Shown one piece after another: positions 7,339 through 31,324 of a stretch of DNA of 64,000 nucleotides. The first letter of the stretch is position 1. Every line of letters begins with the position of its first letter. Source of the stretch: Gaetbulibacter saemankumensis DSM 17032 (GTDB lineage Bacteria; Bacteroidota; Bacteroidia; Flavobacteriales; Flavobacteriaceae); the NCBI RefSeq assembly GCF_000425645.1, contig NZ_KE384430.1, forward strand, positions 1,289,492-1,353,491, in the 5' to 3' direction. The translations under genes were made by a program, and so were the position numbers. Under the pieces are notes generated by a model, which made no database searches, was not told where the DNA came from, and was given only the letters and a program-made list of their open reading frames with translations.

Positions 7339-9714
7339 TTAATCTAATTTATTGCCTAATAAATTGGTAATCAGGGTTGTGAAAACAACAATACTTATAG
7401 AACTTAAAGGCATTAATATGGCTGCAAATACAGGCGTTAGCTGCCCAGTAACTGCAAAGTATAAACCGATAATATTATATATGAAAGAAAGTGCAAAACT
7501 CCACTTAATTACATTAATGGCTGACTTCGATAATTTTATATAATTGTATAATTCTTTGAATTTTGATGCGTCTAGAATGGCATCGCAGGCGGGTGAGAAG
7601 ACATTGACATTTTCTGATATTGCAATGCCAACATCACTTTGAGCTAAGGCGCCTGCATCGTTTAAACCATCACCAATCATAAGCACATGTGCACCTTCAC
7701 TTTGATGGAATTTTATATATTCCAGTTTATCATCTGGTTTTTGGTTGAAAAGCATTTTTGTTTTTGTAGGTAATAATTTGGTGAGATTTTCTTTTTCGCC
7801 TTCATTATCACCAGAAAGAATTACCAAATCGTAGTCTTTTTTTAATTTGTTGAAAAGTAGAGCTAATCCTTTTCTATAGGCATTGTAAAAGGTAAATTTA
7901 CCTTTATAGGTGTTATTTGTACTAACGTATACCGATGTATTTAAGGTGTTTGTTTCTTGAGTTTGCCCAACAAATGGTGCCGACCCGATCTTGATGTTTT
8001 CATTTTTATAACTAGCTTCAATACCTTTTCCTAAATATTCTTCATAAGCATCTAGGGTAAGAATATCATGTTCATCTAAAATTTGATATAAAGTACGACT
8101 TAATGGATGATTCGATCCTCGTAAAGTGCTTTTTAAGAGGGATTCTTCATCTTTTGTTAATTCTAAGCCTTCATAATTAATTTTAGTTTCCTGATTAGTG
8201 GTAATGGTACCCGTCTTGTCGAAAATTAAGGTGTTTATTTTCGCTAATTGTTCTATAACGTTCGCATTTTTTAAGTAAAACTTCTTTTTACCTAATATAC
8301 GCAGTATGTTGCCAAAAGTGAAAGGCGCAGCAAGAGCAATGGCACAAGGGCAGGCGATAATAAGTACCGAAGTAAATACGTTTAATGCAAGGGAAGCATC
8401 ATAAATTAACCAGAAGGAGGTACTTATAAGAGCGATAAATAAAATAGCAATAGTAAAGTTTTTACTTATTTTATTGGTGATGTTTGTAAAAGCTAAAGAT
8501 TTATCTTTTTTAAAGACGTCATTACTCCATAACTGGGTCAGGTAACTTTGTTCTACCGATTTTAAAACATCTACTTCAATACTTCCAAAAAGTTGTTTTC
8601 CACCAGCAAATAATTTATCTCCCGATTGTTTTGACACGGTTTTAGATTCACCCGTAACAAAGCTGTAATCAATTCGAGCTTGCCCCTTTATTAAAATACA
8701 GTCGACAGGAATTAGTTCTTCATTCCTAATGAGTAAACGATCGCCCTTTTTTATATCATAAACCTGAACAGACTCTTCAGATCCGTCATTGTTTATTTTC
8801 GTAATGCCTATGGGGAAATAAGACTTATAATCTCTTTCGAATGATAAAAAAGAATATGTTTTTTGCTGAAAAAATTTTCCAAGTAATAGGAAGAATACAA
8901 GCCCTGTGAGGCTATCGAAGAATCCTGAGCCGGTATCTAAAATAATTTCGGTAGTACTTCTTAAAAAAAGTACAACAATACCCAGGGCTATTGGAACATC
9001 TATATTTAAAAGTTTCGAGCGCAATCCTTTGTAAGCTGAAATAAAATAATCTTGAGCAGAGTAAAATACTACAGGTACAGAAAAGGCAAACATAAGCCAT
9101 CGAAACATAGGTTTAAACTGTTCTAGCCAAAATTCACCCACTTCAAAATATTCAGGAAAAGATAAAAACATAACATTTCCAAAGGCAAAACCTGCAATCC
9201 CTAATTTATAGATTAGGCTTCGGTTTACCTGCTTTTTGCCAACACTGTAATCGTCTAAACTGATGAATGGTTCATAGCCAATGCTACTTAATAAAGTCAC
9301 TAATTCTTTTAAGTTTAATAATTCTGCATTGTAGGTAACTCGAACTGTTTTTTTTCCAAAATTTACTGTGGATGCTGAAACGGCCTGATGAAGTTTGTTG
9401 AGGTTCTCTAAAATCCAGATGCAGGAACTGCAATGGATATGAGGTATGTATAAGGTAACAATTTGTGTATTATCGTTGTTAAATTCTAAAAGCTGATCTA
9501 CAATCTTTTGGTTTTCTAAAAAGTTGTACTTGCCTTCAATATCTTTAGGCGTAGAACCGGGTGCTTGCTGTAAATCATAGTAGCAAGTTAAATCGTTTTC
9601 TGAAAATATTTCATAAACCGTTTTACAACCTGTACAACAAAATGACTTGTCGTCTAATTTAATATTTGAAGTGCTTGCATCTAACCCGCAATGAAAACAT
9701 TCTTGCTTGTTCAT
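7339..9714 (-). CDS. ccoI: Copper-translocating P-type ATPase of the cbb3 locus (CcoI/FixI)
   Basis: A 791-residue P1B-type ATPase. In order it has an N-terminal zinc-finger-like segment with CFHCG and CCTGC, a heavy-metal-associated domain with HIHCSSCIW (about residue 93), membrane helices, the actuator motif VTGES, the metal-site motif ACPCA, the phosphorylation motif DKTGTIT and the hinge MIGDGLNDAGAL. CcoI exports copper to the periplasm for the cbb3 Cu-B centre. It is upstream of ccoS and divergent from the Crp/Fnr gene. A separate FNR-type site in the 106-bp divergent gap suggests its own oxygen control. The substrate (copper) is inferred from motif and neighbours. Confidence 0.94.
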   Translation of the reverse strand: MNKQECFHCGLDASTSNIKLDDKSFCCTGCKTVYEIFSENDLTCYYDLQQAPGSTPKDIEGKYNFLENQKIVDQLLEFNNDNTQIVTLYIPHIHCSSCIWILENLNKLHQAVSASTVNFGKKTVRVTYNAELLNLKELVTLLSSIGYEPFISLDDYSVGKKQVNRSLIYKLGIAGFAFGNVMFLSFPEYFEVGEFWLEQFKPMFRWLMFAFSVPVVFYSAQDYFISAYKGLRSKLLNIDVPIALGIVVLFLRSTTEIILDTGSGFFDSLTGLVFFLLLGKFFQQKTYSFLSFERDYKSYFPIGITKINNDGSEESVQVYDIKKGDRLLIRNEELIPVDCILIKGQARIDYSFVTGESKTVSKQSGDKLFAGGKQLFGSIEVDVLKSVEQSYLTQLWSNDVFKKDKSLAFTNITNKISKNFTIAILFIALISTSFWLIYDASLALNVFTSVLIIACPCAIALAAPFTFGNILRILGKKKFYLKNANVIEQLAKINTLIFDKTGTITTNQETKINYEGLELTKDEESLLKSTLRGSNHPLSRTLYQILDEHDILTLDAYEEYLGKGIEASYKNENIKIGSAPFVGQTQETNTLNTSVYVSTNNTYKGKFTFYNAYRKGLALLFNKLKKDYDLVILSGDNEGEKENLTKLLPTKTKMLFNQKPDDKLEYIKFHQSEGAHVLMIGDGLNDAGALAQSDVGIAISENVNVFSPACDAILDASKFKELYNYIKLSKSAINVIKWSFALSFIYNIIGLYFAVTGQLTPVFAAILMPLSSISIVVFTTLITNLLGNKLD

Positions 9715-9743
9715 TATATAATTTGCTCATTTAATACCTGTTG

Positions 9744-9787
9744 CAAAGATTACAAGTTATGAAAAAATTAAATATGATATTTGTTAT
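9744..9787 (-). promoter_or_regulatory. Candidate FNR-type promoter of ccoI
   Basis: ATGATATTTGTTAT (9774-9787) agrees with the ccoS box at 12 of 14 positions; one arm is intact and the other is degenerate. The minus-strand sequence AATCTTTG (9751-9744) matches the -7 motif TANNTTTG at 7 of the 8 positions (the two N included) and lies exactly 29.5 bp from the box centre, as at ccoS. No -7 motif is seen at the equivalent place for the divergent regulator gene. The site is weaker than the ccoS one. Confidence 0.55.
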
Positions 9788-17041: not shown

Positions 17042-18175
17042 ATGGCTATGAAACAGGACGATATTAATAAACAGGGATTTGTATTTAAAACTTATGAGGC
17101 ACCCAATCAATCACCGTTTGATAAGCTTTTCGAAATTTTTAAAGAGCTCATTACGCATACTTCAGGTGATTTCGATGAGGCAATAGATTGGTTGCATGAG
17201 TTGGACAAGGAATATAGATTAACCACGCCAGACTATTCTATTGATGATTTTATTGAAGACTTGAAGAAAAAAGGTTATATCCGTGAAGAAATTGATCCTG
17301 ATGGTAATTCAGGAACAGCTATAACGGCGAAGACCGAACGTGCCATAAGGCAGCAGGCCTTAGATCAGATATTCGGTAAAATCAAGCGAAGCGGGCGAGG
17401 TAATCATAGAAGTAAAAGCCCAGGACTTGGCGATGAACATACCGGCGATTTCCGAGCTTACCAGTTTGGTGATGCCCTAGATAAAGTCTCAATGACCGAG
17501 AGTTTAAAAAATGCACAGGTTAATCATGGTATTAACGATTTTGCCTTATCTGAAGAAGATTTAGTTGTTGAAGAAACACTGCATAAATCGCAGATGAGTA
17601 CGGTGCTTATGATTGATATTAGTCATAGCATGATTTTGTATGGGGAAGATAGAATCACGCCAGCTAAAAAAGTAGCCATGGCACTCGCAGAATTAATCAC
17701 CACCCGATATCCAAAAGATACATTGGATATTTTGGTGTTTGGAAATGATGCCTGGCCAATAGAAATTAAAGATTTACCTTATTTAAAGGTAGGACCATAC
17801 CATACCAATACGGTGGCGGGGTTGCAATTAGCTATGGACTTATTGCGTAGAAAACGACATACCAACAAACAAATATTTATGATTACCGATGGTAAACCTA
17901 GTTGTTTAAGATTACCAGACGGGCAGTATTATAAAAATAGTATGGGACTCGATGAGTATATTGTTAATAAATGCTATGCCATGGCACAGCAAGCAAGACG
18001 TCTGCATATACCAATTACAACGTTTATGATTGCGCGCGATAATTACCTAATGCAATTTGTCAGGGAATTTACATTTGCAAATCAGGGAAAGGCTTTTTAT
18101 ACAGGTATTAAAGGTTTAGGTGAAATGATTTTTGAAGATTACGAAACTAATAGAAAAAAAAGAATCAAAGGATAA
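17042..18175 (+). CDS. VWA domain protein, partner of an AAA+ ATPase
   Basis: A 377-residue cytoplasmic protein. An acidic N-terminal region with charged helices (residues 1-110) and a basic Gly/Arg/Ser linker (GRGNHRSKSPGLGDEH) are followed by a von Willebrand factor A domain from about residue 185 with the MIDAS motif DISHS (in LMIDISHSMILYG) and MITDGKPS. Such VWA proteins act with a MoxR/ChlI-type AAA+ ATPase, here the next gene two bases downstream. Often labelled magnesium chelatase subunit, but no chlorophyll or cobalamin genes are nearby, so the target is unknown. Confidence 0.85.
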   Translation: MAMKQDDINKQGFVFKTYEAPNQSPFDKLFEIFKELITHTSGDFDEAIDWLHELDKEYRLTTPDYSIDDFIEDLKKKGYIREEIDPDGNSGTAITAKTERAIRQQALDQIFGKIKRSGRGNHRSKSPGLGDEHTGDFRAYQFGDALDKVSMTESLKNAQVNHGINDFALSEEDLVVEETLHKSQMSTVLMIDISHSMILYGEDRITPAKKVAMALAELITTRYPKDTLDILVFGNDAWPIEIKDLPYLKVGPYHTNTVAGLQLAMDLLRRKRHTNKQIFMITDGKPSCLRLPDGQYYKNSMGLDEYIVNKCYAMAQQARRLHIPITTFMIARDNYLMQFVREFTFANQGKAFYTGIKGLGEMIFEDYETNRKKRIKG

Positions 18176-18177
18176 TT

Positions 18178-19644
18178 ATGAATATTGAAACGATAAAAAC
18201 TTTAGGCGATTTAAAACAATCTAATTATCAAAGTAAAAGTATCAAGGATGAGCTTCGTGATAATTTGATTCAAAAAATAAAGAATAAGGAAACTACTTTT
18301 GAAGGGGTACATGGTTATGAAAATACGGTAATTCCCGAATTAGAAAGGGCTATATTATCCAGACACAATATTAATCTTCTCGGATTGCGTGGACAAGCTA
18401 AAACACGATTAGCACGTTTAATGCTGAATTTATTAGATGAATATATTCCATACATCACAGGATCGGAAATAAATGACGATCCTTTTTGTCCCATTTCCCG
18501 ATATGCTAAAGAATTAATTAAAGAACATGGTGATAATACTCCTGTTTCATGGTTGCACCGCAGTGAACGATTTGCGGAGAAATTGGCAACACCGGATGTA
18601 ACGGTTGCCGATATAATTGGGGATGTAGACCCCATAAAAGCTGCTAATTTAAAATTAAGTTATGCTGACGATCGGGTTATTCATTATGGTATGATACCAA
18701 GAGCCAACCGCTGTATTTTTGTTATTAATGAACTGCCCGATTTGCAAGCCAGAATTCAGGTGGCGTTATTTAATATATTACAGGAAGGCGATATACAAAT
18801 ACGTGGCTTTAAGTTAAGATTACCTTTAGATATTCAATTTATTTTTACAGCTAACCCGGAAGATTATACTAACAGAGGTAGTATTGTTACACCGCTTAAA
18901 GATCGTATAGGATCTCAAATATTAACACACTACCCAATGGATTTGGAGACGTCTAAACGTATTACAGCTCAGGAGGCCAAATTATTAGAAGATCAGAAAA
19001 GTTCGGTTACCATTCCTGATTTAGCTCGCAATCTTTTAGAACAAATTACCTTCGAAGCACGCAAGAGTGATTACATTGATGCTAAAAGTGGAGTAAGTGC
19101 GCGTTTAAGTATTACAGCCTTGGAAAATTTATTGAGCACTGCCGAGCGCCGAGCTCTTATTGCAGGGGATGCTAATACGACCATTCGTTTATCTGATTTT
19201 ATTGGTATCATTCCATCAATAACAGGAAAGGTAGAATTAGTTTATGAGGGTGAACAGGAAGGGGCCGCTATGGTTGCCTATAATTTAATAGGAGAAGCGG
19301 TAAAAAGCATATTTGTTAATTACTTTCCAAAAATAGAGAAACTACAAAAGCAGGAAGAAGATAGTCCGTATGATGATATTGTATCCTGGTTTTTTAATCA
19401 GAAAGAAGGGTTCGAATTGTTGGATAATTTAAGAGAGAAGACTTATCTCGAGATCCTAGATTCTATTTCACCATTAGACGATTTAATTGGGAAGTATCAG
19501 CCCAACTTAGCAAAGCAAGATAGTTATTTCATGAAGGAATTTGTCCTCTGGGCACTGGCAGAATTTAAGCTACTTAGTAAAAATCGCTTTTTAGAAGGTC
19601 TTCAATTTAAAGATCCCTATGGGAGTTTTATTAGTGGAATTTAG
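18178..19644 (+). CDS. AAA+ ATPase (ChlI/MoxR-like), partner of the VWA protein
   Basis: A 488-residue ATPase with Walker A GLRGQAKT near residue 64, a Walker B-like segment CIFVINELPDL near residue 180, sensor 1 in IFTANPEDY and an arginine-rich region (PLKDRIGSQI). The Walker B acidic pair is N-E rather than D-E. The C-terminal third is helical (lid and helical domain). It resembles the proteins named magnesium chelatase or sigma-54-interacting in Bacteroidota. Two bases separate it from the VWA gene, so the pair is a tight operon, and the proteins probably form a chaperone-like machine that remodels a client not encoded nearby. Confidence 0.85.
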   Translation: MNIETIKTLGDLKQSNYQSKSIKDELRDNLIQKIKNKETTFEGVHGYENTVIPELERAILSRHNINLLGLRGQAKTRLARLMLNLLDEYIPYITGSEINDDPFCPISRYAKELIKEHGDNTPVSWLHRSERFAEKLATPDVTVADIIGDVDPIKAANLKLSYADDRVIHYGMIPRANRCIFVINELPDLQARIQVALFNILQEGDIQIRGFKLRLPLDIQFIFTANPEDYTNRGSIVTPLKDRIGSQILTHYPMDLETSKRITAQEAKLLEDQKSSVTIPDLARNLLEQITFEARKSDYIDAKSGVSARLSITALENLLSTAERRALIAGDANTTIRLSDFIGIIPSITGKVELVYEGEQEGAAMVAYNLIGEAVKSIFVNYFPKIEKLQKQEEDSPYDDIVSWFFNQKEGFELLDNLREKTYLEILDSISPLDDLIGKYQPNLAKQDSYFMKEFVLWALAEFKLLSKNRFLEGLQFKDPYGSFISGI

Positions 19645-19811
19645 TTAAATTGTCATTTTTCAAATTCATGGTTTAAATAGATAAAATTTTCAAATCTTTA
19701 TTTTAGAGTATGAATTTTTTTTATTCCAATAAAAAGCTTTGATCTAGGTTTTGTAAAATGCTATTTTTAGAGGTTTTTCGTGGTTTTTTATGTATATTAA
19801 GCAAAAACCAT

Positions 19812-19852
19812 GCGTTTTTTGATGTTTTTAATTAAAAATTATCAAAAAATGC
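19812..19852 (+). promoter_or_regulatory. Long AT-rich hairpin in the leader of the HAD-GH gene
   Basis: GCGTTTTTTGAT (19812-19823) pairs with ATCAAAAAATGC (19841-19852) with one G-U pair, and the interior TTTTTAATTAAAAA is itself palindromic, so nearly the whole 41 nt folds. It ends 18 bases before the ATG of the next gene. It lacks a GC-rich stem and U-tract, so it is a candidate translational control element or operator rather than a terminator. The rest of 19645-19870 shows no gene. Confidence 0.45.
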
Positions 19853-19870
19853 TTTAGAATAAATCTTTAT

Positions 19871-21952
19871 ATGGAAACAAACCTTAGTGATAAAATTCCT
19901 ATTAAAATTTTATCTTTTGACATTGATAATACCTTAATCGATTTTCACACTTTAAAAAGTAACTTTACCAAAATATGGAATAAGTACAAGCCACAGGATA
20001 TTTTACTTACCTATAATACAGGAAGGTTAATTGACGATGTTCTTAGACTTATTAAAAAGGGGGTTTTACCAGAACCTGATTATATTATAGGTGGTGTTGG
20101 AACGCTTATTTATGATTTTCATAATAAATGTACCGTTAAGGAATTTAATGATGTTCTTGATGAGGGCTGGGATATTGAAGCAGTTGAAGAACTCGTTCAG
20201 AATATTAATCACCCTATAAGTGAACAACCCGCTAAATTTCAACATTCATATAAACGAAGTTACTTTTTTCACGATGCCAACGATGAGCTTATTGCTAGCA
20301 TAGAGCAGGATTTTGCTGATGCTAATATGTTGGTTAATGTCGTGTACTCAGGTAATAAATTTTTAGATGTACTACCTAAATGGGCTAATAAGGGTAACGC
20401 CTTACAATGGTTGCTTAAGAAGTTAGAATTGAAACCAGTAAACGTATTGGTAGCAGGCGATAGTGGTAACGATTCAGCTATGTTTAATATGAACGGGATT
20501 CGAGGTATTGTTGTTGCAAATGCTCATGAAGAATTATATAAGTTTACAAAATACCGCCAAGTTTATCATGCCGAAGGTGATCATGGTAATGGGGTTATTG
20601 AAGGACTTGTCTATTACGACATTTTTCCAGAAGAGGCGATGAAATTGTTGGAAGAAGATCATACCGATGATTATTTTATTAAACAGGAACTTAACAATAT
20701 TGCAGATGAGGATGATAATGAAAAGCTTAATCTAATTCGAGAAGGTTATGAAAAGGCCATCATTGCTTTAAAAAAGAATATTACACCTCCAGGGTTTTCC
20801 GCTTGTTCCATTGCCGATAATGTTCCCAACGGTACAGATGAGAATTACCATAGTGTCTGGGCTCGCGATGGTGCAATTACTGTGATAGGATCATTATCGC
20901 TTATTCATGACGAAGAAATTCATACCTGTCAACGCCAGACCTTAGTAACTCTAATAGAGCACATTTCGCGTAACGGTCAAATACCATCTAATGTGCGCAT
21001 TAAAGATAATGTAGCCGATTATTCCGGAGTGGGAGGTATTTGCTCTATAGATAGTGGAATTTGGGTAGTTATTGCATTCTATGAGTACGTTAATGTAACC
21101 AAGGATATGGAGTTTCTGCGAAAATATATAGGGGATATAAAAGAAACCATGCGTTGGCTGGGGGCTCACGATAGTAATAATGATGCCTTACTTGAAATTC
21201 CGGAAGCAGGGGACTGGACCGATTTGTTTGGTGGAAGCTATAATATTTTATACGATGAAATTTTATGGTATCGTGCCAATGTATGTTTTGGCAGAATGTA
21301 TGAAATGCTCGGAAATTATGAAGAAGCAGGTGAATATATTCGATGGTCGCAGGTTATTAAAAAGGAAATATTACAAAATTTCTGGCCTTCCACGCAACAA
21401 AAATTATTTCAGTCGGTCTCTTTTGCCGAACGTCAGTTTACCTTGGGAGATACATCGTATTTAATTGCTCAAACAACGCCTTTCGATTTTAGTTGGCGCT
21501 GTGATGTTTTCGGGAATGTATTAGCTTTTTTACATGGAACAGTCGACTCTGAAAAGGCGCATCAAACTTTCAAATTTATGTTAGGTGTAGGGGTTAATGA
21601 TCCCTATCCAGTGCGTAATGTATATCCTGTTGTTACTCCGGGCGATCCTGATTGGCGACCTTATTATACTGTGAATCTGTTAAACTTACCGAATCATTAT
21701 CACAATGGTGGTATCTGGCCATTTGTTGGCGGATTTTGGGTGAAGTTTATTAATAAATTAGGACTTCGTGAAGTGGCAATTTCAGAATTATATAAGCTCG
21801 CTTTAATAAACAAAGAAGGCCTTAATGAAGAATGGGAATTCACCGAATGGGCACACGGAACTTCCGGAAAAGCTATGGGTAAAGCTTATCAGGCCTGGTC
21901 AGCAGCTCAGTATATTTCAGCTTGTAACGATTTAAAAATAATTAATAAATAA
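19871..21952 (+). CDS. Fusion: HAD-type sugar phosphatase + (alpha/alpha)6 glycoside hydrolase
   Basis: A 693-residue two-domain protein. Residues about 10-250 are a HAD-IIB (sucrose-phosphate-phosphatase-like) domain: DIDNT (Asp 17 and 19), TYNTGR, a conserved Lys in NKGNALQWL and GDSGND. From about residue 290 follows an all-helical glycosidase domain with SVWARDGA near residue 330, EAGDWTDLFG, WPFVGGFW and a C-terminal HGTSGKAMGKAYQAWSAAQY. This part resembles amylo-alpha-1,6-glucosidase/neutral-invertase type (alpha/alpha)6 hydrolases (GH133/GH100/GH15-like); I cannot assign the exact family. It is 17 bp before an SPS-like glycosyltransferase, so both probably act on one disaccharide, sucrose or a relative. 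Confidence 0.8.
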   Translation: METNLSDKIPIKILSFDIDNTLIDFHTLKSNFTKIWNKYKPQDILLTYNTGRLIDDVLRLIKKGVLPEPDYIIGGVGTLIYDFHNKCTVKEFNDVLDEGWDIEAVEELVQNINHPISEQPAKFQHSYKRSYFFHDANDELIASIEQDFADANMLVNVVYSGNKFLDVLPKWANKGNALQWLLKKLELKPVNVLVAGDSGNDSAMFNMNGIRGIVVANAHEELYKFTKYRQVYHAEGDHGNGVIEGLVYYDIFPEEAMKLLEEDHTDDYFIKQELNNIADEDDNEKLNLIREGYEKAIIALKKNITPPGFSACSIADNVPNGTDENYHSVWARDGAITVIGSLSLIHDEEIHTCQRQTLVTLIEHISRNGQIPSNVRIKDNVADYSGVGGICSIDSGIWVVIAFYEYVNVTKDMEFLRKYIGDIKETMRWLGAHDSNNDALLEIPEAGDWTDLFGGSYNILYDEILWYRANVCFGRMYEMLGNYEEAGEYIRWSQVIKKEILQNFWPSTQQKLFQSVSFAERQFTLGDTSYLIAQTTPFDFSWRCDVFGNVLAFLHGTVDSEKAHQTFKFMLGVGVNDPYPVRNVYPVVTPGDPDWRPYYTVNLLNLPNHYHNGGIWPFVGGFWVKFINKLGLREVAISELYKLALINKEGLNEEWEFTEWAHGTSGKAMGKAYQAWSAAQYISACNDLKIINK

Positions 21953-21969
21953 CTCAAAATATAAAAATT

Positions 21970-23253
21970 ATGAAGTCAATTTTAATGATCTCTTTACACG
22001 GATATGTAGGAGCAAATGCCGAATTAGGAAAACCCGATACGGGAGGACAGGTAGTTTATGTTTTAGAGTTAGCAGAACGTTTTAGTCGATTAGGGAAAAG
22101 AGTCGATTTAGTAACTCGACAGTTCGAAGATCAGCCCGAATATGACCATGTAGACGAAAATTATAGTGTATGGCGTATTCCGTTTGGAGGTAAAAAGTTT
22201 ATCAGAAAAGAGGATATGCACGATCATTTGAAAAAGTTCGTGACTAACTGTCTGGCAGCTATTAAAAAGGAACGCAAAAAATATGATATTGTTTACACCC
22301 ATTATTGGGATGCTGGTTGGGCAGGACAAAAAATTGCCGAGGAATTAGGAATTTCTCACGTACATACGCCACATTCCTTAGGTTGGTGGAAACAGCACAC
22401 CATGGGAAGTGATATGGATGAAAAGGAAATGGAAGAAAAGTATCGTTTTAAGGAGCGTATTCGTAAAGAGTATTTTGTTTATCAAATGTGTAATTATGTT
22501 ATTGCGACCACGCTGCCTCAAGTAGATTTATTAACCCAGCAGTATGACGTTTTACCTCGAAACTGTGGTATGATACCTCCGGGAATTGATGAAAATAGGT
22601 TCTTTCCTGTTCCAAGTAAGGAAAACGATAAAATACGTGCCAAATACGATATTCATCCAACCGATATTTTGGCTTTAGGCCGTATGGCCCATAACAAAGG
22701 TTATGATTTACTAATTCAGGCATTACCTACTGTTTTTGAATTATGCCCTGAAGCCCGCCTGGTAGCCGCTATTGGCGGCGATCAGTCGAAGCAGGATAAT
22801 AAGGGGATTGAAGGTTTAAAAAAATTAGCTGGTGAAATCGGGGTGTTAGATAAAATTACCTGGAAAAATTACATCGCTGATGCCGATTTGGCTAATGTAT
22901 ATCGTTCGGCAAATATTTTTGCCATGCCATCAAGATATGAACCCTTTGGTATGGTTGCTATTGAGGCCATGGCCTGTGGAACACCTAGTGTAGTAACCGT
23001 TCATGGTGGGTTGTACGATTTAATTGATTTTGGTAACCAGGCGCTGTTTGCCGATCCGCATCGTCCATTAGAGTTCGGTGCTATGATGTCGATGCCTTTA
23101 TTATATCCTAAATTACGTAATGAATTATCTGTGGAAGGTGCACGTTTTGCACGTCGTAATTTTGGGTGGACAGGTATAGCGAAACGCATTCTTACAATTT
23201 TTAATAACTCGATTAACCAACGATCTATGGAATCCAGTATTTATACCCAATAA
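21970..23253 (+). CDS. GT4 glycosyltransferase, sucrose-phosphate-synthase-like
   Basis: A 427-residue GT-B enzyme. The N-terminus MISLHGYVGANAELGKPDTG followed by GGQVVYVLELA is the signature start of sucrose-phosphate synthase and mannosylfructose-phosphate synthase. HTPHSLGWWK lies near residue 132 and the GT4 nucleotide-sugar motif EPFGMVAIEAMACGTPSVVT near residue 325. It probably joins a nucleotide sugar to a sugar phosphate; the upstream fused phosphatase would then release the free sugar. No phosphatase domain is attached to it. Product (sucrose, mannosylfructose or other) cannot be decided from sequence alone. Confidence 0.85.
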   Translation: MKSILMISLHGYVGANAELGKPDTGGQVVYVLELAERFSRLGKRVDLVTRQFEDQPEYDHVDENYSVWRIPFGGKKFIRKEDMHDHLKKFVTNCLAAIKKERKKYDIVYTHYWDAGWAGQKIAEELGISHVHTPHSLGWWKQHTMGSDMDEKEMEEKYRFKERIRKEYFVYQMCNYVIATTLPQVDLLTQQYDVLPRNCGMIPPGIDENRFFPVPSKENDKIRAKYDIHPTDILALGRMAHNKGYDLLIQALPTVFELCPEARLVAAIGGDQSKQDNKGIEGLKKLAGEIGVLDKITWKNYIADADLANVYRSANIFAMPSRYEPFGMVAIEAMACGTPSVVTVHGGLYDLIDFGNQALFADPHRPLEFGAMMSMPLLYPKLRNELSVEGARFARRNFGWTGIAKRILTIFNNSINQRSMESSIYTQ

Positions 23254-25482: not shown

Positions 25483-25996
25483 GGTGAAAAATTTTGTTTA
25501 AAATTAAGGAAAAAGGTTCTTAACGCCTTGTTAATATTTCGCAATTAAATACGAATTGCCTTGCCCTATTTTGAATGTCGTATTATGAAAATTAAATAAT
25601 GACCCCATTTATAAGGATAAAGCAGGCTATTGCCAATATTGTTATTTATTATGAAGAAAAGTTAATAGAAGTATTCACGTTTAATATCATCATATCAATG
25701 TTAGGAGGTTATTTTTTGTAATGTTTTTTAATTCATACACAGACAGTCATAAAGGCGTTTTTTAGAGGTGTAATCACGCTTAACGAGTTGTTTGTTAATT
25801 TATTGCATCTTACCCTGATTAATTTGTCTGCCTATTTAGCGTAATATATCCCCTTAAATTATTTAATAAAAATTTGATATTGCAACTGACTGAAAACTAA
25901 CTAACTAAATCTAATTAAACTAAATTTATGTATTTCAATTATTTCAAGGAGAAACAAAAGTTTCTTTGCTTGCATTATTACAAGCTTAAAAAAACA
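25483..25996. other. 514-bp gene-free region between divergent M1 peptidase and T9SS protein
   Basis: No open reading frame of note on either strand. Upstream of the T9SS protein, TTTG (25791-25794) and TTAATTTG (25819-25826) faintly resemble -33 and -7 elements, but their 24-bp spacing is long and the -7 motif has one mismatch. The first ATG (25928) would add 23 charged residues before a normal signal peptide, so this part is treated as leader. Confidence 0.5.
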
Positions 25997-28900
25997 ATGA
26001 AATGGCTTATTCCATTTGCATGCCTTCTTTTAACCATTCAAATACATTCTCAAGCAGAACAGGGGCTTAAGGGTATTATTCGAAGCGGTAAAACGTATAA
26101 AGCAATTACAGAAGAAGGTGAGTTGTATTTTAAAAGAAAGCATCCAGGATTAACTAAAAAGCAATTAACAGAAGGTGCTTATAGGGATGGTGAGTTTGTA
26201 AAATTTGAACGCTGGAAGAATTTTTGGAGCAGACATCTTACACCAGATGGAAATCTCGCTGACATCTCGGCATTTTACCAAAACAAGACACTTTCAAAAT
26301 CGGGTTCTACATCAAAACTTAGTGCTACCTCATCTAGTCCTTATGCACAGGAACCATGGAGTAATATTAGTTATTCCAATTATATGGGAGGTCAAATTGG
26401 AACGGGTAGGACGACCTGTATAGGCTTTCATCCAACCGATGCATTAACATTCTATGTTGGGACAGCGAACGGTGGAATTTGGAAAACAACAGATGGTGGT
26501 CAGACGTATATTCCGCTTGGAGATGATCTTCCGTTATTATCGGTGAGTAGTATCTTGGTTAATGCTAATAATCCAAACACAATATATATATCGGTAAGTG
26601 ATCACGTATGGTATGGACACCCAGGGATAGGAGTTTATAAATCGATCGATGGAGGTTTAACTTGGGCTCCAACAGCATTAACATTTAATATGTCAGAAAA
26701 AAAGCAATTAAGTGATATTGTTGCAGACCCAGCTAACCCTGATATTATGTTAGTTACTACAACAAAGGGAACTTATAAGACTACAGATGGTTTCAATACG
26801 GTTAGTCAGGTAAATACCTATAAAACGACCTCAAGTCACAAAATAGCATTTGCTCCTGGTAGCAGCAATATCGTATATTTATGTGTAGATGCGGGACAGT
26901 TTTATAAAAGTACAGATGCCGGTGCAACCTGGACACTTAAAAAGGATTTTGGGAGCGGTCAGTTTACTTTAGCGGTAACCCCTTTAGACCCTCAACGCGT
27001 ATTTCTGTCTAAAGCAAAAGTACTTTATAGATCGTATGATCAAGGAGAAACTTTTGCGGTGAATAATGAAAAAGCTTTGCCAGAAAATGGACGTATTAAG
27101 TTTTCTCCTAATAATACCGAAACCCTGCTGACCGGAAATTTTGAATTTTGGAGATCAGATAATGCAGGTTCAACCCATACTCAAATTGCTGACTGGGTAG
27201 GCGCCGGTGGATTATACGAAATGCATGTAGATGTTAGAACTATAGTTGTAAACCCCTTAGAAAGTAACAAGGTTTATATTTGTCACGATGGGGGTATAGA
27301 TAGGTTAAATGTTGATAATAACAATTTTGAAAATCTTTCAGGAGGACTTGTTATTACTCAGTTTTATGATATAGCTACTGCACAATCCAATAATATTGTT
27401 GTTAGTGGAGGATCGCAAGATAATGGTTCGGTTTTTAAAAATGCATCAGGAACCTGGCAATACTTTGCTACTACAGGGGATGGTATGGTAACAGAAATTG
27501 ATCCTACAGATGTAAACACCATGTATTGGGAATATCAATATGGTGATATGAGAAGATGGAGTGGAGGATCCAACACAAATATATCTCCAGCTGGTCAAGG
27601 TGGTAGTGGTGCTTGGGAAACACCTTATGAGCTTGATAAAACAAACCCAAATCGTTTGGTAGTAGGCTATAAAAGTGTGTATGAAAGTACAAATAAAGGT
27701 AATAGCTGGACGATTATTGGGGATAATATTTCTGGATCTAATCTTACGGAAATTGCTATTTCCAAGTCTAACCCGCAAAAAATATATGCAGCTAGGGCAG
27801 GTGTTGTTTATGAAAAAGATGCAGCTAGCAACAATTGGACCACCCATACAATACCTACAGGTTCGATTACAGATCTAAAAGTGGATCCTACAAATGAAAA
27901 TACTATTTATATTACATTAGCTGGGTATAGTGCCGGTAATAAAGTATATAAATCTATTGATGGCGGTGCTAATTGGACTAATATATCAGGGACACTTCCT
28001 AATGTACCTGTTAATGCTATTCAAACATATGAATCGGTTCCTGGAGGGTTGTTTATAGGAACTTTTAGTGGTGTTTATTATACTGATGATAGCGCTACAG
28101 ATTGGTTGGAGTATGGACAACTTCCGCACACCGATGTAAGGGATATTGAGATTAACTACACTGCTCAAAAAGTAAGAGTTGGTACACATGGTAGGGGTAT
28201 TTTTGAGGCAAACATTAATGTAAGCGTTTGTAATGCGAGTTCTCCGGACACAGATGGTGATGGTATATGTGATTTATTGGACTCTTGTCCTAATTTAGAT
28301 AATAGTCTTATTGGAACGCCTTGTGACGATGGGGATCCAACGACCATAAATGAAGTGTATTTGGACGATTGTGGTTGTGGAAATGGTACTTATGTAACGC
28401 CTACTTATTGTTCTGCGCAAGGTAGTGCTGGAACAGGATCGGATTATATTTCAAGAGTACAATTAAATACTATTGATAATGCTTCCGAGAAATCGACGTA
28501 TTCAGATTATAGAAATCAGATTACCGATCTTGAAATTGGCCAAACCTATAATGTTACTATTTCGTTAGCCGCATATTTTACAGGTGACGTGGCTATGGCT
28601 TGGATTGATTTTGATGCTAATGGTATTTTTGATAATACTACTGAACTTATTACGTTTTCCGCATATACTAATAAAACGGCAACGGCACAGGTTACTATTC
28701 CACAAAATGCTCAAATTGGTGTAACCGGTTTTAGAGCTAGGAATATTTACGGAACGGCTGTCGATCCATGTGGTAATTACTATGGAGAGGTTGAAGATTA
28801 TGCAGTGCGAATCATAGCAGCGCCAGACACCGAAGCTCCTACAGCGCCAACAAACCTTGCCGCATCAAACATTACCGATACAACGGCTACCTTAACTTGG

Positions 28901-31324
28901 ACAGCCTCTACCGATAATGTAGGGGTAACATCTTATGAAGTATTTGAAGATGGGATTACAAGTATTGGCTCTGTTACAGGAACAAGTATGAACCTAACGG
29001 GATTAACAGTAGCAACACAGTATAACTATACTGTTAAGGCTAAAGATGAGGCAGGAAACATATCTACCGCTAGTAATACAGTAACCTTTACAACTATCGA
29101 TACTCAAGCTCCTACGGCACCAACAAATCTTGCAGCATCAAACATTACTGATAAAACTGCTACCTTAACCTGGACAGCTTCTACCGATAATGTAGGTGTG
29201 ACATCCTATGAAGTATTTGAAGATGGGATTACAAGTGTTGGCACTGTTACAGGAACAAGTATGAACTTAACGGGCTTAGTGGCAACTACCCAGTATAGTT
29301 ATATTGTTAAAGCGAAAGATGATGCTGGAAATGTGTCTCCTGCGAGTAATACATTAACTTTTACTACTGGTACCGAAACATTACCAACATATTGTTCTGC
29401 ACAGGGAACTGCCGGAACAGGATCGGATTATATTACAAGAGTACAATTAAATACTATTAACAATACTTCTGGACAAACACAGTATTCAGATTATACAAAC
29501 CTGATAACCGATCTAGCGGTTGGTCAAACCTATGATGTTACCATGGTGCTTAACCAAGCTTTTGCAAGTGATGTCGCTATGGCCTGGATTGATTTTGATG
29601 CCAATGGTATTTTTGATAACACTACCGAACTTATTACGTTTTCCGCATTTTCTAGTAATACGGCAACGGCACAGGTTACTATTCCGCAAAATGCTCAAAT
29701 TGGTTTGGTCGGTTTTAGGGCTAGGAATATTTATGGAACGGCTGTCGATCCATGTGGTAACTATTATGGAGAGGTTGAGGACTATGGGGTGAGAATAACA
29801 GCAGCACCTGTACCCGATACCGAAGCACCTACAGCACCAACAAACCTTGCTGCATCAAATATTACCGATACAACGGCTACCTTAACTTGGACAGCTTCTA
29901 CTGATAACGTGGGTGTGACATCCTATGAAGTATTTGAAGATGGGATTACAAGTGTTGGATCTGTTGCAGGAACAAGTATGAACTTAACAGGGTTAACGAC
30001 AGCAACACAGTATAACTATACCGTTAAGGCTAAAGATGCTGCTGGAAATGTTTCCACTGCTAGTAATACAGTAACTTTTACAACTATCGATACTCAAGCT
30101 CCTACGGCACCAACAAACCTTGTCGCATCAAACATTACCGATACAACGGCTACCTTAACTTGGACAGCCTCTACCGATAACGTGGGTGTTACATCCTATG
30201 AAGTATTTGAAGATGGGATTACAAGTGTTGGTTCTGTTACAGGAACAAGTATGAACTTAACGGGGTTAACAACAGCAACACAATATAATTATACCGTTAA
30301 GGCTAAAGATGCTGCTGGAAATGTTTCCCCTGCTAGTAATACAGTAACCTTTACAACTATCGATACCGAAGCACCTACAGCACCAACAAACCTTGCTGCA
30401 TCAAATATTACCGATACAACGGCTACCTTAACTTGGACAGCTTCTACCGATAATGTAGGGGTAACAACCTATGAAGTATTTGAAGATGGGATTACAAGTG
30501 TTGGATCTGTTGCAGGAACAAGTATGAACTTAACAGGATTAATGGCAGCAACACAGTATAACTATACCGTTAAGGCTAAAGATGCTGCTGGAAATGTTTC
30601 CCCTGCTAGTAATACAGTAACCTTTACAACTACTAATCAGCCTCCAGCGACCTATTGTACGGCATCTGGAACGAGTGGTACAGGAAACCATTTTATAAAT
30701 AGGGTTCAGATTAATACCATTGATAATTCATCATCTTCAAGCACCTATTCAGACTTTACCAATCTATCTACGGATCTAACACCAGGAGCCACATATACCA
30801 TGTCAATTAAATTGGAACAGGCAAGTGGACAGGACAATGCGATGGCCTGGATTGATTACAATGATAATAAGTCTTTTGAAAGTAATGAATTGATAACTTT
30901 CTCAGGTTATAAGGCTAAAGTTGCAGATGCCACGTTCACAGTGCCATCAGGGGCAAATGCAGGTAGTGTTCGACTTAGAGTGAGAAACATCTATTCGAGT
31001 TCAGCCGTCGATCCTTGTGGAAATTATGCTGGAGAAGTTGAAGACTATACCGTTATCATAAATGCGTTACCTGAGTCTCCTACGTTTGGGAATGACTCTT
31101 TTGTTTATCCAAATCCAGCTTCAACAGAATTAAACATAAAGCCTTCAAGTAGCTTAAGTGATTACAATGTAAGAATTCTTGATGTCTATGGTAATACTAT
31201 TTATAATAAAAGAAATGCTCATGAAATTGATGTGTCATCATTTCCAAATGGTTTATATATTGTAGAAATACATTATTTAACAACTTCAGTAAGGTTAACA
31301 AAAAAGGTTTTAGTTAGTCATTGA
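25997..31324 (+). CDS. Giant secreted protein: BNR-type propeller, GEVED and FN3 repeats, T9SS sorting domain
   Basis: A 1775-residue protein from the ATG at 25997 (signal peptide MKWLIPFACLLLTIQIHSQ). In order: a VPS10/BNR-like beta-propeller (about 26370-28210, with repeats like GIWKTTDGGQT, GVYKSIDGGLTW and VYKSIDGGANWT); a calcium-binding thrombospondin-3-like segment (DTDGDGICDLLDSCPN); GEVED domain 1 (about 28405-28815); FN3 1-2; GEVED 2 (about 29389-29805); FN3 3-5; GEVED 3 (about 30650-31060); and a C-terminal type A sorting domain (VYPNPASTELNI ... SFPNGLYIVEI ... KKVLV). The protein is therefore exported by the T9SS and attached or released at the surface. No catalytic residues were recognised; adhesion or glycan/protein binding is likely. 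An in-frame upstream ATG at 25928 is possible but less likely. Confidence 0.88.
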   Translation: MKWLIPFACLLLTIQIHSQAEQGLKGIIRSGKTYKAITEEGELYFKRKHPGLTKKQLTEGAYRDGEFVKFERWKNFWSRHLTPDGNLADISAFYQNKTLSKSGSTSKLSATSSSPYAQEPWSNISYSNYMGGQIGTGRTTCIGFHPTDALTFYVGTANGGIWKTTDGGQTYIPLGDDLPLLSVSSILVNANNPNTIYISVSDHVWYGHPGIGVYKSIDGGLTWAPTALTFNMSEKKQLSDIVADPANPDIMLVTTTKGTYKTTDGFNTVSQVNTYKTTSSHKIAFAPGSSNIVYLCVDAGQFYKSTDAGATWTLKKDFGSGQFTLAVTPLDPQRVFLSKAKVLYRSYDQGETFAVNNEKALPENGRIKFSPNNTETLLTGNFEFWRSDNAGSTHTQIADWVGAGGLYEMHVDVRTIVVNPLESNKVYICHDGGIDRLNVDNNNFENLSGGLVITQFYDIATAQSNNIVVSGGSQDNGSVFKNASGTWQYFATTGDGMVTEIDPTDVNTMYWEYQYGDMRRWSGGSNTNISPAGQGGSGAWETPYELDKTNPNRLVVGYKSVYESTNKGNSWTIIGDNISGSNLTEIAISKSNPQKIYAARAGVVYEKDAASNNWTTHTIPTGSITDLKVDPTNENTIYITLAGYSAGNKVYKSIDGGANWTNISGTLPNVPVNAIQTYESVPGGLFIGTFSGVYYTDDSATDWLEYGQLPHTDVRDIEINYTAQKVRVGTHGRGIFEANINVSVCNASSPDTDGDGICDLLDSCPNLDNSLIGTPCDDGDPTTINEVYLDDCGCGNGTYVTPTYCSAQGSAGTGSDYISRVQLNTIDNASEKSTYSDYRNQITDLEIGQTYNVTISLAAYFTGDVAMAWIDFDANGIFDNTTELITFSAYTNKTATAQVTIPQNAQIGVTGFRARNIYGTAVDPCGNYYGEVEDYAVRIIAAPDTEAPTAPTNLAASNITDTTATLTWTASTDNVGVTSYEVFEDGITSIGSVTGTSMNLTGLTVATQYNYTVKAKDEAGNISTASNTVTFTTIDTQAPTAPTNLAASNITDKTATLTWTASTDNVGVTSYEVFEDGITSVGTVTGTSMNLTGLVATTQYSYIVKAKDDAGNVSPASNTLTFTTGTETLPTYCSAQGTAGTGSDYITRVQLNTINNTSGQTQYSDYTNLITDLAVGQTYDVTMVLNQAFASDVAMAWIDFDANGIFDNTTELITFSAFSSNTATAQVTIPQNAQIGLVGFRARNIYGTAVDPCGNYYGEVEDYGVRITAAPVPDTEAPTAPTNLAASNITDTTATLTWTASTDNVGVTSYEVFEDGITSVGSVAGTSMNLTGLTTATQYNYTVKAKDAAGNVSTASNTVTFTTIDTQAPTAPTNLVASNITDTTATLTWTASTDNVGVTSYEVFEDGITSVGSVTGTSMNLTGLTTATQYNYTVKAKDAAGNVSPASNTVTFTTIDTEAPTAPTNLAASNITDTTATLTWTASTDNVGVTTYEVFEDGITSVGSVAGTSMNLTGLMAATQYNYTVKAKDAAGNVSPASNTVTFTTTNQPPATYCTASGTSGTGNHFINRVQINTIDNSSSSSTYSDFTNLSTDLTPGATYTMSIKLEQASGQDNAMAWIDYNDNKSFESNELITFSGYKAKVADATFTVPSGANAGSVRLRVRNIYSSSAVDPCGNYAGEVEDYTVIINALPESPTFGNDSFVYPNPASTELNIKPSSSLSDYNVRILDVYGNTIYNKRNAHEIDVSSFPNGLYIVEIHYLTTSVRLTKKVLVSH
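28824..30635 (+). repeat. Five near-identical FN3 repeats in two blocks
   Basis: Units of about 273 bp start near 28826, 29099, 29817, 30090 and 30363, each encoding APTAPTNL-ASNIT...TWTASTDNVGV. The first two are split from the last three by GEVED domain 2, which is also nearly a copy of GEVED domain 1. Long stretches are identical at DNA level, including synonymous positions, pointing to recent duplication or gene conversion. Confidence 0.85.

Follow-up and report, generated by a model that had tools for sequence, protein, structure and literature searches.

We examined a 64,000-nt stretch of the Gaetbulibacter saemankumensis DSM 17032 genome (contig NZ_KE384430.1, positions 1,289,492 to 1,353,491; the whole stretch is called the window, and positions are counted within it unless another locus is named). 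The genome, labeled G000, comprises 3.09 Mb in 11 contigs. Two genes follow each other on the window's forward strand, separated by 17 bp. The first (ATG at 19871, stop codon ending at 21952) encodes a fusion of a sucrose-phosphatase-type HAD domain and a GH100-like hydrolase domain, and the second (ATG at 21970, stop codon ending at 23253) encodes a GT4 glycosyltransferase. The original prediction, a reading of this DNA alone, had placed a phosphatase–hydrolase fusion beside such an enzyme at exactly these positions, and matches to S6PP, to GH100 and GDE_C, and to GT4 agree with it. The sequences establish the domains, their kept catalytic residues, and the gene order with its conservation.

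A recurrent fusion gene and its GT4 partner

A sample of 397 Flavobacteriaceae genomes, surveyed for the fusion, gave near-whole-length matches in 30 of them, 29 without an inner stop and one (G483) with a single TGA; a species-genome scan yielded 25 fusion loci at 78–90% identity. Outside the class, whole-length fusions occur in two genomes, G274 (among 395 genomes sampled across the phylum) and G796 (among 195 genomes of G274's class). Because the fusion recurs across genomes in both the samples and the scan, it is not an artifact. Removing 10 duplicates from 53 fusion rows leaves 43 distinct fusions, and in all 43 the GT4 gene is the next open reading frame on the same strand. Within the phylum sample, the whole fusion and a close GT4 (E ≤ 1e-40) co-occur, and do so only in G000 and G274.

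A gene for an AAA ATPase lies directly ahead of 38 of the 43 distinct fusions. It is further off at L009 and L023, and was not seen near L025 (Lutibacter), L098 (G274), L142 (G561) or L173 (G796). The VWA-domain and MoxR-type AAA genes were considered as part of the fusion's unit and set apart, given the 226-bp gap and the fusions near which no AAA gene was seen; no functional link between them and the fusion was seen. The gap presumably holds the promoter of the fusion–GT4 pair. By alignment only, no motif common to 39 upstream regions appeared in the printed part of the alignment, and a subset that includes the window shares a gTATATTAAGC-like stretch.

Three further observations concern the surroundings. 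At L009 in Tamlana laminarinivorans, the AAA gene and the fusion are separated by a gene (8372–9760) for a 462-aa protein that looks secreted and has a sorting-type C-terminus. The Tamlana nanhaiensis record NZ_JTDV01000010.1 holds the cluster and its neighbors twice (L006, 1–16606, and L007, 183453–205501), with the same coordinates in the common part, perhaps an assembly duplication. Downstream in the window, at 25928–31324 on the forward strand, lies a gene for a repetitive 1798-aa protein with repeats TYCSAQG... and APTAPTNLAASNIT... and a secretion-type C-terminal end.

Table 1. Coordinates of the fusion, its domains, its partner and related features (window positions except in the last row)
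Feature	Coordinates	Strand	Evidence
Gene for the 693-aa fusion of a sucrose-phosphatase-type HAD domain and a GH100-like hydrolase domain	19871..21952	+	Open reading frame; Pfam, NCBIfam and PDB matches; homologues
HAD-IIB domain, about residues 1–262, sucrose-6-phosphate phosphatase type	19871..20656	+	S6PP; 1s2o; invariant residues
Interdomain linker, about residues 263–280, boundaries approximate	20657..20710	+	Conserved less than both domains (alignment)
GH100-like hydrolase domain, about residues 281–689	20711..21937	+	Pfam GH100 and GDE_C; 5goo; 38-sequence alignment
Sucrose-phosphate-synthase-type GT4 glycosyltransferase, 427 aa	21970..23253	+	Pfam, NCBIfam and PDB matches; alignments
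Gap of 226 bp separating the fusion from the MoxR-type AAA gene ahead of it	19645..19870	+	Sequence
Genes for a VWA-domain protein and a MoxR-type AAA ATPase, immediately ahead of the fusion	17042..19644	+	
Compact sucrose-type cluster: PfkB, GH100, sucrose-phosphate synthase with degenerate phosphatase domain, two short HAD genes	L180 (plasmid p6) 2098–7549		

Domain matches and kept catalytic positions

The phosphatase half matches Pfam S6PP across fusion residues 12–250 (215.2 bits, cut-off 20.3) and the Synechocystis sucrose-phosphate phosphatase (SPP; 1s2o, E 3.6e-26). Sucrose-phosphatase families are its top matches, yet it stays below the NCBIfam equivalog cut-offs (TIGR01485, 158.1 bits against 183.65). 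All HAD motifs (DxD, the motif II Thr/Gly, the Lys and GDSxxD) are present and align with Synechocystis SPP, and in an alignment of 20 sequences Asp17, Asp19, Thr50, Gly51, Lys174, Asp197, Asn200 and Asp201 are invariant (codons of Asp17 and Asp19 at 19919–19921 and 19925–19927). The phosphate ligands of SPP named in the available part of PMC5113954 are Asp9, Thr41, Gly42 and Lys163.

The C-terminal half of the fusion matches two families about equally, GH100 (residues 527–684, 53.6 bits, cut-off 23.6) and GDE_C (465–681, 52.1 bits, cut-off 21), and a PDB search aligns it with the alkaline invertase 5goo (E 9e-8). Asp451 and Glu659 (codons 21221–21223 and 21845–21847) are identical in all 38 aligned hydrolase domains, one true GH100 among them, as are Arg332, Asp333, Asp394 and the HNGG at 611–614, which sits within a YHNGGIWP motif at residues 610–617. 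Asp451 would be the general acid and Glu659 the base, a pair that we take to correspond to the catalytic residues of InvA. When the window is compared with its relatives, the hydrolase half is closer than the HAD half in 52 of 53 rows, a count that takes in duplicates and the window's own fusion. Two Deinococcus relatives at 33–35% identity carry the GH100 name in their records, and the window domain is 19% identical to the full GH100 of Acidithiobacillus; it probably represents a new subfamily or a neighboring family.

The partner enzyme is matched by GT4 domains in Pfam and by the GT-B model of sucrose synthase. Its nearest solved relatives are MshA and the sucrose-phosphate synthases (SPS) of T. 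elongatus (TeSPS) and H. orenii. Across the window GT4 and 18 close relatives, Gln27, Lys80, His135, Lys141, Arg163, Arg238, Lys243 and Glu324 are invariant. Taking the TeSPS residue roles from the part of PMC7264703 available, with the offset in chain numbering inferred, Gln51, His158, Arg178, Arg249 and Glu331 of TeSPS are kept as Gln27, His135, Arg163, Arg238 and Glu324, while Arg105, Arg253 and Ala48 are replaced by Lys80, Asn242 and Thr24. Most of the kept positions are also found in MshA. Gln27 and Pro325 match the solved SPS chains, the corresponding residues being Met and Ser in the two MshA rows; in place of the acceptor-site Met and ESFG motif of these two rows, the window GT4 has Gln27 and EPFG.

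Gene neighborhoods and a candidate make-and-break cycle

A PfkB kinase gene directly follows the GT4 gene at 17 of the 43 distinct loci: 15 counted outright, L023 (a split GT4 in a metagenome-assembled genome) and L128 (its protein the same as that of the short locus L027). The solved relative closest to this kinase, 2qhp, was deposited as a fructokinase. In G000 itself a copy with 68% identity lies at G000:C1:1101785-1102663, about 207 kb from the fusion; the prediction of a self-contained cycle is thus partly right, the fructokinase-like gene lying alongside at those 17 loci and apart from the fusion in the window's own genome.

Unfused arrangements place similar functions side by side. In G816, a genome of G274's class, the HAD, GT4 and hydrolase are encoded by adjacent, separate genes on the same strand (L172; 28, 58 and 54% identical to the window), and its hydrolase is the sister of the fused hydrolases in the hydrolase tree (support 100/100). 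On this evidence, the three functions form a set even in the absence of fusion. On a plasmid of Paracoccus sp. TOH, a GH32-like protein (24.6 bits, cut-off 22.1) precedes an S6PP-type HAD and a GT4 of the window's clade (58% identity), so that, judged by its family match, a different hydrolase fold of a fructofuranosidase family occupies the same slot. Plasmid p6 of Acidithiobacillus sp. AMEEHan carries an MFS transporter, PfkB, a true GH100 (624.8 bits) and an SPS/S6PP protein together.

We also examined 19 loci with stand-alone relatives of the hydrolase, drawn from hits in the phylum and family samples (the family sample gave 16 hits, of which 14 entered the flank set, with G552 and G767 out; the short loci L028–L031 were not counted). 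PfkB lies within four genes at 16 of the 19, a LacI regulator at 14, a relative of the TIGR01301-type symporter at 13 and a TonB receptor at 10. G000 has a similar locus, L174 (4048–12226, or about 1159000–1167300 of G000:C1), with a LacI-type regulator, TonB receptor, sucrose-symporter-like MFS protein and PfkB that are 54, 47, 54 and 47% identical to their counterparts at L099. There a sucrose phosphorylase (TIGR03852, 358.7 bits, cut-off 334.4) takes the hydrolase's place. L174, which lies outside the window, is probably a sucrose-uptake locus, and kindred Flavobacteriaceae have the GH100-like hydrolase in such loci. Taken together, the PfkB genes, G816, the Paracoccus and p6 plasmids and the stand-alone loci favor a fructose-containing disaccharide, with sucrose the simplest choice.

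The original prediction had suggested that one protein might release and then split the same disaccharide. The gene neighborhoods point toward such making and splitting of one sugar; the domains in one chain and the catalytic acids agree with it, and the acceptor and donor are inferred. By a narrow balance of probability, we think that the two genes encode a sucrose cycle, in which the fusion of release and splitting may set the sucrose pool. The GT4 would join the glucosyl group of a nucleotide sugar to fructose-6-phosphate, yielding sucrose-6-phosphate, from which the HAD domain of the fusion would remove the phosphate and free sucrose. Within that chain, the GH100-like domain could also hydrolyze sucrose to glucose and fructose, and the PfkB kinase, encoded by the next gene in many relatives and elsewhere in G000, would return fructose to fructose-6-phosphate. 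Conditions that favor one of the two fused activities could fix the level of a pool serving as compatible solute or short-term carbon store. Fructose-6-phosphate is quite likely the acceptor; glucose is probably the donor sugar, and probably both fusion domains are active. The pool-setting role of the fusion is a more tentative proposal, which we regard as somewhat doubtful.

A number of findings weigh against this sucrose reading. In the phosphatase, the conserved SPP serine (Ser44 in Synechocystis, Ser54 in Arabidopsis SPP2) is Leu53 in the window, a position held by Met in G274 and G796 and by Pro in G816 and Paracoccus; in the available text of PMC5113954, activity of the Ser54Ala Arabidopsis SPP2 was not detected. 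The G816 operon is a parallel and not a proven ancestor, because its HAD is only 28% identical to the window's. Trehalase genes occur at 3 of the 19 stand-alone loci. The structure model of the fusion, built on 24 close sequences, is poor (mean predicted local distance difference test score 54.3, predicted template-modeling score 0.45).

For the GT4, the NCBIfam MshA model scores slightly higher than that for SPS (TIGR03449, 214.2 bits, cut-off 462.5, against TIGR02472, 204.5 bits, cut-off 576), with both cut-offs missed by a wide margin, and the PDB search likewise gives MshA 155.4 bits against 144.8 and 135.9 bits for the two SPS chains. The window GT4 lies in its own clade of seven rows (support 100/100) that groups with neither SPS nor MshA and is equally near to both, at 27–30% identity. 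The SPS rows form two groups, with that of TeSPS joined to MshA, so the tree is undecided. Gln27 and Pro325 also have counterparts in a Streptomyces GT4 of unknown role. These data could suit an enzyme that makes another phosphorylated glycoside, for instance with an MshA-like inositol-phosphate acceptor, for processing by the fusion; the acceptor-site Gln27 and Pro325, the SPP type of the phosphatase and the fructokinase-like and GH32-like neighbors all speak against it, and we hold it to be very unlikely. The predicted label "SPS-like" is fair, if not certain, for this sequence.

The hydrolase tree complicates the choice of sugar. The fused hydrolases group with those of Deinococcus, Variovorax, L029, L031 and L115 (support 97/93), apart from the stand-alone clade of sucrose-uptake-like loci; the window domain is 25–29% identical to the stand-alone rows L099–L114, and 22–29% identical to its stand-alone relatives among the Bacteroidota rows. 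GH130 mannoside-phosphorylase-type genes adjoin L031 and L115, and a GH38-type gene (with a GH38 C-terminal domain) lies near the D. taeanensis relative, which suggests mannose chemistry in the branch of the fused hydrolases. The Agrobacterium mannosylfructose pathway consists of a GT4 plus a HAD enzyme. Since GH130 genes adjoin L031 and L115, mannose stays a candidate for the other half of the sugar: the GT4 could use GDP-mannose (or another donor) with fructose-6-phosphate, the HAD domain would release mannosylfructose or another hexosyl-fructoside, and the hydrolase would cleave it to mannose and fructose. Fructokinase-like and GH32-like neighbors suit any fructofuranoside, and the GT4 is about equally distant from the solved SPS chains. 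However, the stand-alone hydrolase clade adjoins sucrose-symporter-like genes at 13 of 19 loci, and the available text of PMC4390843 describes GH100 invertases as sucrose-splitting alpha-glycosidases. None of the five mannosylfructose papers listed has the enzymes in its title. We consider such a product improbable.

Nor need the hydrolase domain be a working enzyme. In the fusion of G483 (L125, 9551–11419 and beyond), a TGA follows residue 620 of the window numbering, ahead of Glu659, and the frame stays open for 71 codons past it; either the end of the hydrolase has been lost or the TGA is a sequencing error. If both opposed activities of the chain worked, nucleotide sugar would be wasted unless one of them were held in check, and the C-terminal domain of plant SPP has a role in dimerization, according to the available part of PMC5113954. 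The domain could accordingly sense or bind the product and regulate the phosphatase, much like the repurposed binding module that the original prediction offered as its second option. The G483 stop notwithstanding, the invariance of Asp451 and Glu659 up to a true GH100, and the greater likeness of the hydrolase part than of the HAD part among fusions, render it less likely than an active hydrolase; we rate a sensor about as improbable as a mannosylfructose product. Because of the G483 stop and the GH130 neighbors, we are slightly less sure of the sucrose cycle, and these two alternatives have risen slightly.

A one-way overflow is a further alternative, in which the fused hydrolase turns each new disaccharide straight into free hexoses, leaving no store or osmolyte. 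Both steps do reside in a single chain, and neither an exporter nor a salt-response gene was recognized beside the fusion, where most unlabeled neighbors lacked annotation. The distribution of trehalose-phosphate synthase (PF00982) bears on this point. It is present in 0 of the 30 fusion genomes against 130 of the 367 others (Fisher p 6e-6) and, counted by genus, in 0 of 22 with 7.5 expected; the comparison covers the PF00982 route, with TreS and TreYZ left out. In a quick rpoB tree built from 80 of the 397 genomes (30 with the fusion, 28 with PF00982 and 22 taken as neither, being listed for neither), the 30 carriers all fall within a single clade of 34, and the fusion requires five changes. 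Because all carriers fall in one clade, the absence of PF00982 counts as approximately one event and lends weak support; an independent-pairs test yielded only two pairs, too few for any association. PF00982 is also absent from the four fusion-free members of the clade and from G274, G796 and G816, which lie outside the class and have the parts (0 of 7), and is present in 5 of the 16 family genomes with a stand-alone hydrolase. These counts are compatible with sucrose having replaced trehalose as a solute. The stronger proposal, that in one branch of the Flavobacteriaceae the cassette replaced the trehalose-phosphate pathway and a single polypeptide, releasing sucrose with its N-terminal half and destroying it with its C-terminal half, sets the level of the protective disaccharide (with salt, turgor or the binding of sugar as examples of what might tune it), is speculative and, in our estimate, rather unlikely. 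The absence of trehalose-phosphate synthase in the same clade weakly fits a solute role. Overflow and pool-setting would look alike in the present data; we regard overflow as very unlikely.

If the sucrose cycle is correct, a complete cycle that makes and breaks a non-reducing disaccharide exists in heterotrophic Bacteroidota, with the rare feature of antagonistic enzymes in one chain, and the sugar level is decided at one easily purified protein. It would be a simple system for testing how cells control the amount of a sucrose-type sugar. The locus further singles out a GT4 clade and a GH100-like subfamily for substrate assignment, and genome annotators gain a better guess than "HAD hydrolase."

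Comparison with known systems

Like the known SPS and SPP systems, the locus pairs a GT4 with a HAD-IIB phosphatase; most catalytic positions agree, and the steps come in the same order. There, however, the fusion partner of the phosphatase is the GT4 or the plant S6PPc domain, whereas here it is a hydrolase; the window GT4 forms a separate deep clade at 27–30% identity, and the Ser44 of SPP is a Leu. The GH100 alkaline/neutral invertases (5goo, 5z73 and CINV1) share the aligned catalytic Asp and Glu and the HNGG motif with the window domain, which differs in being equally like GDE_C and in sitting inside a larger chain. Because each family has a tested feature that is absent or unclear here, we do not claim strict SPP, SPS or GH100 membership.

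Mycobacteria also have a large multidomain protein with a part that resembles a disaccharide phosphatase, OtsB1, which belongs to the trehalose family. One of its parts is glycosidase-like. OtsB1 is reported to lack phosphatase activity in the portion of PMC11046441 available.

The arrangement had been predicted to be undescribed. The literature found indeed leaves the fusion unnamed: among openly licensed PMC papers, no title or abstract opening that we found names a phosphatase–invertase fusion. Clusters for sucrose synthesis and cleavage are, however, known. The spsA-sppA-frkA-amsA cluster of Synechococcus PCC 7002 combines synthesis, cleavage and a fructokinase (PMC11046441, available in part), and SPS, SPP and sucrose synthase genes lie together in Methylococcus Mc7 and Methylocaldum (PMC8527097, available in part). 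As far as these texts describe them, amylosucrase or sucrose synthase cleaves the sugar in those organisms and the proteins are separate, whereas here the hydrolase is fused. Plasmid p6 of Acidithiobacillus sp. AMEEHan (NZ_CP118751.1) comes close, with PfkB, GH100 and SPS/S6PP together, but its GH100 has its own gene and its phosphatase-like domain is fused to the GT4, with an S6PP match that starts at profile position 31 and no aligned DxD. The parts are therefore known and their join seems new: a sugar metabolism of SPS/SPP type in which the releasing and the splitting step would share one chain.

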